This document shows, piece by piece, positions 59,767 to 64,000 of a stretch of DNA of 64,000 nucleotides; position 1 is the first letter of the stretch, and the number at the start of each line of letters is the position of its first letter. Source of the DNA: Gammaproteobacteria bacterium (lineage in GTDB: Bacteria; Pseudomonadota; Gammaproteobacteria; Nevskiales; Nevskiaceae); the NCBI GenBank assembly GCA_026398815.1, contig JAPLSA010000017.1, positions 310,001 through 374,000 on the forward strand. The letters run 5' to 3'. The position numbers and the translations under genes were made by a program. The notes under the pieces are model-generated. The model did not search any database and had not been told where the DNA came from. It was given only the letters and a program-made list of their open reading frames with translations.

Positions 59767-60480
59767 CTACCCCTGGCTGCGGCTGTCGAGTTCCCGGGCG
59801 CCAGCCATCAGGCAGGCAAACAGGCTCTTCAGATGGGCGTGGACCTGCTCGATCGGGCCGCGCGGATCGCTGATCAGCCACTCGGTCATCAGCTCGCGGA
59901 TGGCGCCGATCATGCCGATGCAGGTCCGCAGGTAATCGCGGTCCGGCAGTTCGCCGGTCGCCACCAGCGCCCGCGTGAAGCTGTTCAGCACACCGGCGAA
60001 TTCGTGGATCGCGGCGCGCCGGCGATCGAACATCTCGCTGCTGACGCCGATCACCTCGACGCACAGGATGCGGGTGCGCCGGGGGTCCTGCGTGCAGCCG
60101 TCGACGAAGGCGCGCAGCGCGGCTTCCATCCGCTCTTGCGGCGTCTGCGATTCGCGCAGCAGCGCTTCGGTCACCACCCGGCGGGTGTCCAGCATGATCC
60201 GGTCGTACAAGGCCACCAGCACGGCCTCGCGCGACTCGAAATGCTCGTAGAAATGCCGGGTCGTGACCCGCGCCGTCGAGCACAGCAGCTCGATCGGCGT
60301 GCGCGAGAAGCCGCGTTCGGCAAACAGGTCGAGTGCGGCCTCAAGCAGGCGCTGGCGACGCTCGGCAGCCAGTTGTTCGGACGTTCGTCCGGCGTAGCCG
60401 CGCCGCTTGGGCGGCGTGCGGAACCCGGGACCGCCCGGCAGCAAGGCGGCAGCCGATCCTGACGGATCAATCATGGACAT
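59767..60480 (-). CDS. TetR-family transcriptional regulator
   Basis: 237 residues. The HTH is RLLEAALDLFAERGFSRTP then TARVTTRHFYEHFESREAVL, a standard TetR DNA-binding domain after an extended N-terminus of about 35 residues. The C-terminal helical domain would bind a ligand, perhaps an acyl-CoA, judged from the neighbouring crotonase and acyl-CoA synthetase genes (inference). Start ATG at 60480, with a second ATG at 60474. The TetR gene lies downstream of the crotonase on the same strand. Confidence 0.87.
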   Translation of the reverse strand: MSMIDPSGSAAALLPGGPGFRTPPKRRGYAGRTSEQLAAERRQRLLEAALDLFAERGFSRTPIELLCSTARVTTRHFYEHFESREAVLVALYDRIMLDTRRVVTEALLRESQTPQERMEAALRAFVDGCTQDPRRTRILCVEVIGVSSEMFDRRRAAIHEFAGVLNSFTRALVATGELPDRDYLRTCIGMIGAIRELMTEWLISDPRGPIEQVHAHLKSLFACLMAGARELDSRSQG

Positions 60481-60489
60481 GCGGTACAC

Positions 60490-60776: not shown

Positions 60777-61580
60777 TCAGCGGCCGGTGAAACGGGCCGG
60801 ACGGCGCTCGACGAACGAGGCCACGCCTTCCTTGACGTCATCGCTGCCCATGATCGGCGAGAGGTCGCGGACCAGCCGCTCGATCGCCACCTGATCGCCC
60901 TGCTCGATGGCGATCCGCGACGACTTGAGGCTGGCGTAGACACCGAGCGGCGCCTGGGCGGCGACCCGTTCGGCAATCGCCAGGCCGCGCTCGAACTGCT
61001 GGCCGGCCGGCACCACTTCCTGGACGAGGCCGATGCGCAGCGCCTCGGCGGCATTGAACTCGTCGCCGGTCAGCAAGTACTTCTGGGCATTGCCCCAGCC
61101 GAACTCCTGGACCATGCGCACCGTCGCACCGCCGACTGCATAGATGCCGCGCTTCACTTCGATCTGGCCGAAGCGGCAGTCGTCGGCGGCGACACGGATA
61201 TCGGCGGCCAGCGCCAGTTCGATCGCCACCGTGAAGCAGATGCCGTGCATCGCGAAGATCACCGGCTTCGACACCCGCTTTTCCGGGATCAGGCCGAACG
61301 GATCGCGTTCGTGCTCCGCCAAATCCGGCCACTGGCCGGAGGCGAAGGCCGGGGTCCACTGGGTCAGTTCCAGCCCGGCGGTAAAGGCCTTGCCGTTGGC
61401 CGACACCAGCGCGCAACGCAGTTCCGGATCGGTATCCAGCAGGCCGTAGGCGGCAGCCAGCTGGTGATGCATCTCCAGGTCGAAGGCGTTGTATTTCTCC
61501 GGCCGGTTGAAGGTGATCAGCAGCACATGGCCGCGGCGTTCGGTGAGGATCTTCGGTGCGGCGGCAGGGGTCTGGGTCAT
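60777..61580 (-). CDS. Crotonase/enoyl-CoA hydratase family protein
   Basis: 267 residues. Crotonase fold with FNRPEKYNAFDLEM, first oxyanion strand FTAGLELTQW, and catalytic-Glu region FGQIEVKRGIYAVGGATVR. The canonical GGG of the second oxyanion turn reads TVA (ICFTVAIELALAADI). It hydrates or isomerises an unsaturated acyl-CoA, but the changed turn makes the exact reaction uncertain. It diverges from the LuxR-ligase fusion across 91 nt. Confidence 0.88.
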   Translation of the reverse strand: MTQTPAAAPKILTERRGHVLLITFNRPEKYNAFDLEMHHQLAAAYGLLDTDPELRCALVSANGKAFTAGLELTQWTPAFASGQWPDLAEHERDPFGLIPEKRVSKPVIFAMHGICFTVAIELALAADIRVAADDCRFGQIEVKRGIYAVGGATVRMVQEFGWGNAQKYLLTGDEFNAAEALRIGLVQEVVPAGQQFERGLAIAERVAAQAPLGVYASLKSSRIAIEQGDQVAIERLVRDLSPIMGSDDVKEGVASFVERRPARFTGR

Positions 61581-61671
61581 GGCGGGCGGTGGCGGACAGC
61601 GGTGGAGGAAACGGCGATCAGCGCAGGCAGTGCGGCAGTGGCGCGCCGGCCCCGGATGTTAGCCTCCCGGC

Positions 61672-63528
61672 ATGCGCGCCACGATCCCCGAAGCCCTGAC
61701 CCAGCGAGAGCAGCGGGTACTCGCCCGTCTGGAGCAGGGCCTGTCCAACCGGCAGATCAGCGAAGCGCTGTTCATCAGCGAGCAGACGGTCAAATTCCAC
61801 CTGAAGAACATCTACGCCAAGCTCGGCGTCCACGGCCGGGTGCAGGCGGTGATGCACGCCCGCCGGGCAGCCGGCGAGGCGTCGGCCGCACCGCGCAGCG
61901 CCGATGCTGATGCCGCACTCGTCGCCCAGGCGCGGCGCCGGCAGATGGAGCCGGTGCTGAGCCCGCTGGAATTCCTGCGCCATCGCCGCCAGCAGCATCG
62001 CGACCGCGAGGCCGTGGTCGACGGCAGCTTGCGCTGGACCTGGGGCGAGTTCGCCGACTACTGCGACCGCGTCGCCATCGCGCTGGCGGCGCTCGGCGTG
62101 CAGCGCGGCCAGCGAGTGGCGGTGATTGCCGCTGGCGGCCACGAGACGCTGGCGCTGTTTCATGCGGTGCCGGCGCTGGGTGCGGTGATCGTGCCGATCG
62201 ACACCCGGCTGCCGGCCGTCGACCAGCTGGCGCTGGTCCGTCACTGCGAGGCGCAGCTGCTGTGTGCCGACCTGGAGGCCATCGACACCCTCGCCGCCGG
62301 CCCCGGCCTTGCCGAGCTGCAGGGCCTGCCGCGCGCCGCGCTCGGCGGCAGCCGGTCCGGCTGGATCGCGCTGGGCCTGCGGGTCGCGGAAGCCGGCGGT
62401 CCGCCGCCAGCGGCCGAGATCGCCGATGACGACCTGATCGCGATCGCCTACACCAGCGGCACCACCGGCGCGCCGCGCGGCGTGATGATCAGCCATCGCA
62501 ATGCCTGGATGAACAGCATGCGCTGCCTGCTGCACTGGCCGCTGGGCGTCGACGACCGCTACCTGTGGCTGCTGTCGTTCGCGCACGCCAACGGCTGGGG
62601 CTATGTCTGGACCGTAGTCGCCGCCGGCGCCACCCAGGTCTGCACGCGGGAACGCAGCCTGCTCGGCAATCTGGCCCTGCTCGGCGCCGAGCGGGTCACC
62701 GCGTTCTGCGCCGGCCGCTCGACATTGCAGGCCGCCACCCAGGCCGCAGCCGCCGACCTGCCCGCAGTGCCGCGCGGCATCCGCGTGCTGGTTGCCGGCT
62801 CGGCGCCGTCACCGACGCTGCTGGCCCGGCTCGACCGCGCCTATGGCTTCCGGATCACCCACGGCTACGGCCTGACCGAGACCGCCGTGTTCGTCGCCTT
62901 CAACGAAGTGCCGGCCAGCCTCGCCGCCGGCGGCGACGAATCGGCGCGTGCCCAGCACCTTGCCCAGCAGGGCATCCCGGCACTGGGCGCCTGCGAGGTA
63001 CGGATCGTCGACGAGGAAGGCGTCGACGTGCCGGCCGACGGCCGCAGCCTCGGCGAAGTGATCGTCCGCAGCAGCAGCCTGATGCGCGGCTACTGGCGCG
63101 ATCCCGAAGCGAGCCTGCGGGCGCTCGAAGACGGCTGGTTCCACACCGGCGACGCGGCGGTGATGCACGCCGGCGGCAGCTTCGAGATCCGCGACCGGAT
63201 CAAGGACATCATCATCAGCGACGACCAGCTGGTCGCCTCGCTGGAAGTCGAGGCCGTGCTCGTCCAGCACCCGGACGTCATCGAAGCCGCCGTGATCGGC
63301 GTCCCCGATCCGGCGCTCGGCGAGCGGATCGTCGCCTGGATCGTGCTGCGCAATCCGTACAGCTTCGATGTCGCCACGCTGCAAGCGCATGTCGCCGGCC
63401 GGCTGGCCGCGTTCAAGCGGCCGCACCGCTACGAAGTCACCCGGACGCTGCCGCGCACCGCCACCGGCAAGCTCGCCAAGCAGGTGCTGCGCGAGCAGGC
63501 GCGCAGCGTTTCCCCCTCCTTGGAGTAG
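61672..63528 (+). CDS. LuxR-type HTH fused to acyl-CoA synthetase
   Basis: 618 residues. Residues 8-66 form a complete LuxR/GerE helix-turn-helix: LTQREQRVLARLEQG, then SNRQISEALFISEQTVKFHL and KNIYAKLG. After a linker (about 70-95), an adenylate-forming ligase follows: YTSGTTGAPRGVMISH (A3, with Arg for the usual Lys), HGYGLTETAV (A5), WFHTGDAAV (A7), RDRIKDIIISDDQLVAS (A8, where GGEN is expected), and the C-terminal TATGKLAKQVLR with the catalytic Lys. One reading frame, no frameshift. It would combine DNA binding with acyl activation; it diverges from the crotonase and is followed by another acyl-CoA synthetase. Fusion is seen; function is inferred. Confidence 0.88.
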   Translation: MRATIPEALTQREQRVLARLEQGLSNRQISEALFISEQTVKFHLKNIYAKLGVHGRVQAVMHARRAAGEASAAPRSADADAALVAQARRRQMEPVLSPLEFLRHRRQQHRDREAVVDGSLRWTWGEFADYCDRVAIALAALGVQRGQRVAVIAAGGHETLALFHAVPALGAVIVPIDTRLPAVDQLALVRHCEAQLLCADLEAIDTLAAGPGLAELQGLPRAALGGSRSGWIALGLRVAEAGGPPPAAEIADDDLIAIAYTSGTTGAPRGVMISHRNAWMNSMRCLLHWPLGVDDRYLWLLSFAHANGWGYVWTVVAAGATQVCTRERSLLGNLALLGAERVTAFCAGRSTLQAATQAAAADLPAVPRGIRVLVAGSAPSPTLLARLDRAYGFRITHGYGLTETAVFVAFNEVPASLAAGGDESARAQHLAQQGIPALGACEVRIVDEEGVDVPADGRSLGEVIVRSSSLMRGYWRDPEASLRALEDGWFHTGDAAVMHAGGSFEIRDRIKDIIISDDQLVASLEVEAVLVQHPDVIEAAVIGVPDPALGERIVAWIVLRNPYSFDVATLQAHVAGRLAAFKRPHRYEVTRTLPRTATGKLAKQVLREQARSVSPSLE

Positions 63529-63581
63529 TTCGGCGGCGGCGATCCTCGCCTAAGGTGCGCGCCAGCCAAGGAGCCCACCTG

Positions 63582-64000
63582 ATGACCCCCACCGACGCCG
63601 GCCAGGCCTTCCGCGCCGCCCGCGATGTCCTGCTCGCCCATCGCCGCGATGCCGCCACCGCCTGCCGGGAATTCCACTGGCCGGAAGCAGCGCCGTTCAA
63701 CTGGGCGCTGGATCATTTCGACCACCTGGCGCACGGCAATGAAGCCACCGCGCTGTGGATCGTCGAAGCCGACGGCCGCGAAAGCCGGCGAAGCTTCGCG
63801 GCGCTGTCGGCCGCCTCGGACGCCATCGCCAACGGCCTGCGCGCCCAGGGCCTGCGCCGCGGCGATCGGGTGCTGGTGATGCTGCCGAACACCGTCGAGC
63901 TGTGGGAAACGATGCTGGCGCTGATGAAGCTCGGCGCCGTGCTGAGCCCGGCGACGATGCTGCTGTCCAGCGACGAGCTGGCTGATCGCGTCGAACGCGG
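63582..64000 (+). CDS. Acyl-CoA synthetase, N-terminal part (cut by window edge)
   Basis: 139 codons visible, then the window ends. The start (FNWALDHFDHLA, then RSFAALSAASDAIANGL and GDRVLVMLPNTVELWETMLALMKLGAV) matches adenylate-forming ligases of the medium-chain acyl/benzoate-CoA type. It lies 53 nt after the LuxR-ligase fusion, on the same strand, and probably shares its transcript. The active-site motifs lie beyond the edge, so substrate class is open. Confidence 0.82.
   Translation, partial: MTPTDAGQAFRAARDVLLAHRRDAATACREFHWPEAAPFNWALDHFDHLAHGNEATALWIVEADGRESRRSFAALSAASDAIANGLRAQGLRRGDRVLVMLPNTVELWETMLALMKLGAVLSPATMLLSSDELADRVER

Follow-up and report, generated by a model that had tools for sequence, protein, structure and literature searches.

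ANL (AMP-binding) enzymes undergo a large movement of the C-domain that is coupled to their ligands. The biotin protein ligase BirA carries a winged helix-turn-helix (HTH) on a ligase fold of a different kind. Group I relatives of BirA exist which are devoid of a DNA-binding domain, and the adenylate serves as the regulatory ligand (accessible part of PMC4016012). A proline dehydrogenase also represses the put operon, uniting enzyme and regulator in one chain (PMC6978683, in the portion available). ANL enzymes themselves have been re-engineered as sensors, and in two that were tested adenylation was kept and thioesterification was significantly affected (available text of PMC10590383).

This work addresses a natural protein in which a LuxR/GerE-type HTH stands in front of an ANL ligase. 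It is encoded near the right end of the window, which is the whole stretch of 64,000 nucleotides analysed here, from a genome of the Nevskiaceae. The initial annotation, made from the letters of the window, described a complete GerE-type HTH joined in frame to a ligase, and this description holds. The gene is one uninterrupted open reading frame (ORF) of 618 aa, and an in-frame TAG lies upstream of its ATG with three sense codons in between (Table 1). Pfam places GerE at residues 8-63 (80.0 bits against a cut-off of 23.5, profile positions 2-57 of 57), AMP-binding at residues 103-475 (PF00501, 238.6 bits) and AMP-binding_C at residues 525-600 (PF13193, 73.5 bits). With a complete GerE HTH above the curated cut-off the protein belongs to PF00196, and with AMP-binding, AMP-binding_C, motifs A3, A5 and A7, the A8 hinge and the A10 Lys it belongs to the ANL superfamily, carrying Arg for Lys in A3. 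The Pfam scan of the fusion found neither the N-terminal autoinducer-binding domain of LuxR quorum-sensing regulators nor a biotin-ligase catalytic domain. At third codon positions the GC fraction is 0.89 for the HTH, 0.81 for the linker and 0.91 for the ligase; the three genes on the left have 0.87-0.92 and the ligase gene that follows (ligase 2) 0.91, values that make the frame look coding over its whole length. Judged from its sequence, the protein may be a one-component regulator with a ligase half that has kept the adenylation, or at least the binding, of a carboxylic acid and makes little thioester, a reading that we place just short of an even chance.

Table 1. Features of the fusion gene and its surroundings, in coordinates of the window.
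Feature	Position	Strand	Evidence
Fusion gene: N-terminal LuxR/GerE HTH + ANL (AMP-binding) ligase	61672..63528	+	ORF, Pfam, full-length Panacagrimonas relatives
HTH domain, residues 7-63	61690..61860	+	GerE 80 bits, conservation, sequence matches to solved LuxR-type HTHs
Flexible linker, residues 64-95, including Met92 (61945-61947)	61861..61956	+	pLDDT, low identity, alignment
AMP-binding N-domain, residues 103-475	61978..63096	+	PF00501
A3 (P-loop) YTSGTTGAPRGVM, residues 260-272, Arg269 in place of Lys	62449..62487	+	alignment
Arg349 replacing a near-invariant Pro (CAAPT -> CAG[RK]x)	62716..62718	+	alignment
A8 loop, DDQL for GGEN (residues 517-520)	63220..63231	+	alignment
AMP-binding_C, residues 525-600, ending at catalytic Lys600 (63469-63471)	63244..63471	+	PF13193
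Inserted segment, fusion + ligase 2	61586..64000, continuing to about window-equivalent 65298	.	blastn against five relatives
Intergenic region, crotonase start to fusion start, possible shared promoter/operator	61581..61671	.	coordinates
Imperfect inverted repeat over the fusion start codon, weak operator candidate	61638..61682	.	
Crotonase/enoyl-CoA hydratase, PRK06563 subfamily	60777..61580	-	356 bits, cut-off 261
TetR-family regulator downstream of the crotonase	59767..60489	-	Pfam
Ligase 2, stand-alone acyl-CoA synthetase, 564 aa, cut by the window end	63582..64000	+	

By sequence, the HTH matches chains of NarL, VraR, GerE and DevR. Outside the fusions its best match, at 86 bits, is L087:5974, an 83-residue frame of a Verrucomicrobia record with little beyond a LuxR-type HTH. 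The AlphaFold model of the fusion (mean pLDDT 78.7, 14 rows) shows a single state, which is no evidence about conformation. The ANL ligase is mostly modelled with good confidence, weaker around residues 350-440, and the HTH, with helices at residues 11-21, 26-33 and 37-66, stands at about 77-84; pLDDT falls below 50 in the linker region (residues 53-95). Among the 50 fold matches listed of 649 (E up to 0.001) the titles are of ANL type, examples being 1ult, amide bond synthetases and MenE.

The domain-architecture search called for by the initial annotation recovered the same full-length fusion, at 45-48% identity to that of the window, in three genomes of Panacagrimonas (Nevskiaceae), namely P. 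perspica DSM 26377 and two MAGs. The architecture was found in 4 of the 85 genomes of the order, as searched at E up to 1e-200 with at most 15 candidates scored per genome. Chance and a sequencing or assembly artefact are ruled out, since the same fusion occurs in three genomes of another genus. The class sample (369 genomes, 1e-32) returned the window's own genome and one HTH-less match starting at profile position 79, and the phylum sample (398 genomes, 1e-30) returned the fusion in its own genome alone; these two samples overlap, were drawn from larger groups and had at most 9 candidates scored per genome. Narrow HTH patterns matched 390 stretches in a species-genome collection, 312 of them encoding relatives, and both domains shared one ORF at 3 of the 79 loci drawn from the best 80 of these 312. 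On plasmids 152 records were matched, and among the 8 matches listed all start at query residue 91-96, without the HTH. A widespread architecture was thus not found in the order, class, phylum, species-genome or plasmid searches, all of which distant or weaker fusions could escape. As a separate observation, 17 loci among L061-L135, from varied proteobacteria and a Binatota record, hold a large LuxR-type regulator with C-terminal HTH (ORFs of 901-1202 aa) plus an acyl-CoA ligase gene; the ranking of loci favoured such co-occurrence, and the number is no measure of enrichment.

The initial annotation had also not seen a coupling of metabolism and transcription of this make-up described. Among the papers listed by our literature search, no title or abstract opening describes an HTH-ANL ligase fusion, and in PMC3466318, which surveys the LuxR domains of actinobacteria, the term AMP-binding is absent from the main text, as available. 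As read here, the fusion would be of an already known kind, the enzyme-derived one-component regulator; what the listed papers do not show is this pairing of two common domains.

To compare the ligase halves, 108 ORFs with a ligase domain were reduced, by dropping duplicates and spans under 470 residues, to a set of 61 ligases (4 fused, 57 HTH-less), which comes mostly from loci retrieved because they resembled the fusion and is no random sample of ANL enzymes. A tree was built from 37 of the 61, selected by locus. It unites the fused ligases in a single clade with support of 100/99, nested on long branches among HTH-less ligases, next to those of G073 and G256. The HTH-less paralogues of Panacagrimonas do not stand beside the fused clade, in a part of the tree where branches are long. 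The window copy, whose letter make-up is unusual, has the longest fused branch (1.85), and its join with the fusion of G041 is flagged as possible long-branch attraction.

Every one of the four genomes holds, together with its fusion, an HTH-less paralogue with GGEN, and fusion and paralogue of the same genome are 43-58% identical over 513-514 positions and have the ANL motifs in common. The four paralogues pass PRK06187 (515-533 bits, cut-off 476) and score best with PRK08162 (601-614, below its cut-off of 677), while the window's fusion lies below both cut-offs, with 403.5 against 476 and 379.9 against 677. Between genomes the fused ligases are 44.6-70.3% identical, whereas across the same pairs of genomes the HTH-less paralogues keep 72.3-87.4%.

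In the three Panacagrimonas pairs the HTH is the most constrained part of the protein: by the Nei-Gojobori method its dN/dS, resting on 57 codons, is 0.025/0.416, 0.118/0.722 and 0.117/0.869 (0.06, 0.16 and 0.13), compared with 0.214/0.608, 0.406/0.778 and 0.449/0.869 (0.35, 0.52 and 0.52) for the ligase N-domain. For the closest pair, the ratio is about 1.15 in the linker, which rests on 25 codons, and 0.23 in the HTH-less paralogue. HTH identity is 94.7% between the two closest fusions, linker identity between fusions is 16-44%, and Lys41 and Lys45 of the recognition helix are present in all four. Pairs with the window give HTH ratios of 0.46, 0.71 and 0.75, against 0.66, 0.65 and 0.75 in the ligase N-domain; synonymous sites are close to saturation in these pairs, and identities are 56-63% for the HTH against 42-48% for the ligase domains. 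For Panacagrimonas, selection on the HTH is thus shown; for the window it is no more than suggested, because the ratios of the window pairs are not clearly lower than those of the ligase.

These values bear on the idea that the HTH is a passenger, without DNA binding, on an ordinary or decaying ligase. The fusion is rare, the window copy sits on a long branch, and its HTH ratios just given would suit such a passenger. The window's Met92 would suit it too, as it aligns with the start Met of the HTH-less paralogues, at the point where the ligase part begins, and as an internal start it could give the window ligase alone. In the other three fusions, however, the Met92 column reads Ile, Ile and Pro, and the old ligase start is therefore gone; GTG or TTG codons lie near that point, and internal initiation there may occur, to judge from the codons. 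The HTH is complete in two genera, and a passenger is hard to square with an HTH dN/dS below that of the ligase in all three Panacagrimonas pairs. We consider the passenger improbable, and continue with the one-component regulator.

In the ligase half, a column was taken as near-invariant when at least 93% of the 57 HTH-less ligases have one residue, which gave 32 columns; 26 are unchanged in all four fusions, 2 are changed in all four and 4 in one to three. Among those kept throughout are G263, T264, H305, E403 (A5), D494 (A7), R509 and D512 (A8) and K600 (A10); the terminal catalytic Lys, K600, which the initial annotation had noted as retained, is Lys in all 57 HTH-less ligases and all four fusions. 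The two columns changed in every fusion are position 349, with R/R/K/R where 55 of 57 HTH-less ligases have Pro, and position 518, the pantetheine-tunnel glycine of ANL acyl-CoA synthetases, with Asp in 4/4 fusions and Gly in 57/57 HTH-less ligases. Position 520 is L/L/L/I in the fusions, Asn in 51/57 and Leu in 1/57 of the HTH-less ligases. The partly changed columns are Lys269, Thr265, N155 and P302. The Arg reported in A3 is present in the window at the P-loop Lys269, a Lys in 57/57 HTH-less ligases, and is a trait of only three of the four fusions; in G041 Thr265 has become Gly, and the A5 residue Thr402 has become Ser. The reported exchange of GGEN for SDDQ is right as to A8 and one residue out of register, because Ser516 is the conserved Ser that precedes the tetrad and the residues aligned with GGEN are DDQL. 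The fused ligases have also changed elsewhere than at position 518: all four fusions differ at 18 of the 194 columns that do not vary among 18 close HTH-less orthologues, including 349, 518 and 520.

A phmmer alignment to the Thermus enzyme equates 518 with Gly442, 520 with Trp444, 509 with residue 433 and 600 with residue 524. According to the part of PMC6122825 at hand, Gly442 has index 648, and the same glycine in 4-chlorobenzoate:CoA ligase (CBL), Gly409, lines the pantetheine tunnel; when Gly409 was replaced by Leu, activity was lost only in thioesterification. Index 650, which corresponds to Leu520 of the fusion, contacts the AMP phosphate; in CBL the contact is made by Asn and is restricted to the thioesterification conformation (PMC6122825, same part). 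Motif A8 is tied to the pantetheine tunnel also by PMC8388817, as far as its available text goes. The most uniform and strongest change therefore falls on the second half-reaction, and the residues of the first half-reaction are mostly, though not wholly, intact. The A8 change is thus more telling than the initial annotation had it, as the CoA-tunnel glycine is altered in all four. Since that glycine is Asp, poor hand-over of the acyl group to CoA is predicted, by extrapolation from Leu in CBL to Asp here.

The same residues allow three other readings of the ligase half. It could be a catalytically dead sensor of acid, ATP/AMP or acyl-CoA, with DNA binding that follows occupancy only; the ligase half has diverged more, two near-invariant sites carry charged replacements, and the P-loop Lys or Thr is altered in each fusion. 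We nevertheless hold this to be unlikely: Lys600, Asp494, Arg509, His305 and Glu403 persist in 4/4 fusions, and the kept Lys600 counts against it because mere binding of a ligand would call for no catalytic Lys. The opposite reading, a trigger enzyme that is still a full acyl-CoA synthetase and also binds DNA, would explain the intact A10 Lys and most core motif residues, as well as a fold near solved ANL ligases, and enzymes doubling as repressors are known (PMC6978683, available portion). Set against it are the Asp that replaces the pantetheine-tunnel glycine in every fusion and the GGEN paralogues in the same genomes, and we rate it as distinctly unlikely. A transfer of the acyl-adenylate to a non-CoA acceptor, such as an amine or carrier protein, with the HTH placing or regulating the chemistry, would fit the retention of most adenylation residues together with the loss of the CoA-tunnel glycine, and amide bond synthetases are among the closest folds listed. 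It would leave the conserved HTH unexplained, however, and no acceptor gene was recognised beside the fusions among ORFs of 120 aa or more, a size at which a small carrier protein would be missed; we regard this transfer as very improbable.

The one-component regulator is the reading that we favour. In its more specific form, the protein would be an acyl-adenylate-sensing transcription factor, in which the CoA step is disabled by the A8 change from Gly to Asp and the acyl-AMP state is held as a signal read by the LuxR HTH. This form, suggested by the residue pattern, would be a convergent counterpart of BirA made from unrelated domains; it is tentative, and we see it as possible rather than probable. 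In the one-component reading as such, the HTH of a LuxR-type regulator would have been added to the front of a duplicated acyl-CoA ligase. The HTH would bind DNA, and the ligase half would bind a carboxylic acid and ATP and probably form an acyl-adenylate, since most catalytic residues are kept. A long-lived acyl-AMP state and closure of the domains could then alter dimerisation or the presentation of the HTH, and thereby control transcription, in the manner of BirA but with unrelated domains. The likeliest target would be the fusion's own operon, including the stand-alone ligase behind it.

The initial annotation had proposed that the protein could directly regulate its neighbours, the divergent crotonase gene among them. 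Its layout is right: 91 nt separate the two divergent genes, and another acyl-CoA synthetase, ligase 2, starts 53 nt after the fusion stop (best model MbcS, 344.7 bits, below the cut-off of 850). Control of the crotonase is not supported by synteny. The crotonase is 90-96% identical in six genomes of the same genus, and blastn alignments to five relatives end at 61581-61585 and begin again at 65298-65299. The fusion and ligase 2 lie between these breaks, in a 3.7-kb insertion; the crotonase next to it is native. In all five mapped relatives (G007, G014, G002, G016 and G013; protein search in four, DNA homology in G013) the crotonase adjoins a 128-aa ORF with no gene between. Beyond this ORF, which is without a Pfam match, follow ThiF-family, PrmC-like, release-factor and glutamyl-tRNA-reductase genes (Pfam, on the copies of the window's genome). 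The crotonase as a conserved target is thereby ruled out, since it holds the same place without the fusion in 5/5 mapped relatives, and no feature singles it out as a long-standing target. The insertion has cut it off from the genes that precede it in relatives, and it may therefore now use the 91 nt shared with the fusion. What stands of the proposed coupling of metabolism and transcription is a real HTH-ligase fusion in two genera, which is consistent with such coupling; the crotonase as the regulated gene is not supported.

The TetR-family regulator is probably the likelier local regulator; its gene accompanies the crotonase in G014 too, whose crotonase has no fusion beside it. To the left of the TetR gene lies a dihydrolipoamide-dehydrogenase-like gene on the minus strand (Pyr_redox domains), which we take to be lpd. 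A scan of 61581-61671 for sigma-70-like promoters found no site. The inverted repeat over the fusion start codon consists of two 14-nt arms (86%), 17 nt apart, in GC-rich sequence. The two-gene insertion between crotonase and 128-aa ORF is precise, and its far junction is common to G010; the G010 contig starts inside ligase 2, which is 96% identical over residues 219-563.

The surroundings differ in Panacagrimonas. In all three genomes (L142, L143 and L145) a DnaJ-like co-chaperone gene immediately precedes the fusion, at 24-99 nt as judged from longest ORFs, and in two of them the HTH-less ligase follows the fusion after 119-129 nt. In G041 the fusion and the HTH-less ligase each lie close to the end of a contig, an arrangement compatible with the same order but no proof of it. 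A stand-alone ligase thus follows the fusion on the same strand in the window and in 2/3 Panacagrimonas genomes, the ligases being of different subfamilies; in Panacagrimonas it may reflect mere tandem duplication. As to how the fusion arose, 45 of the 75 other HTHs scored among the fetched loci sit C-terminally in ORFs of at least 800 aa, and the fusion may have originated when the 3' end of a large LuxR-type gene ran into a ligase gene.

If our reading is true, the steps by which a metabolite-sensing transcription factor emerged from the large ANL superfamily can be named: a ligase gene was duplicated, an HTH was acquired in front of the former start codon, and the glycine of the CoA tunnel was lost. 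The question of enzyme to sensor would then be directly testable, because four genomes each hold the fusion and an HTH-less paralogue. The protein would also represent a natural scaffold for acid-responsive regulators.

Compared with its HTH-less paralogues, the fusion has the same ANL motifs and adds the HTH, Asp for Gly in A8, Arg or Lys for Pro349 and a faster divergence. With LuxR/GerE-type regulators, including the large (LAL-like) ones, it has a complete GerE HTH in common; unlike in these, the HTH is N-terminal and its partner is a metabolic ligase. The trigger enzyme PutA, presumably the proline dehydrogenase that represses the put operon, is enzyme and regulator in one chain, as is proposed for the fusion, with a different enzyme and a different DNA-binding domain. 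GECFINDER biosensors likewise use ANL enzymes as ligand sensors, but they are engineered, fluorescent and not DNA-binding (PMC10590383, available text). Group II biotin protein ligase (BirA) has, like the fusion, an N-terminal DNA-binding domain on an adenylate-forming ligase. The fusion, in contrast, combines a LuxR HTH with an ANL ligase, and the Pfam scan shows in it no catalytic domain like that of BirA; the likeness is one of analogy, not homology. BirA keeps its second step and transfers biotin, whereas the second step of the fusion is predicted to be impaired.
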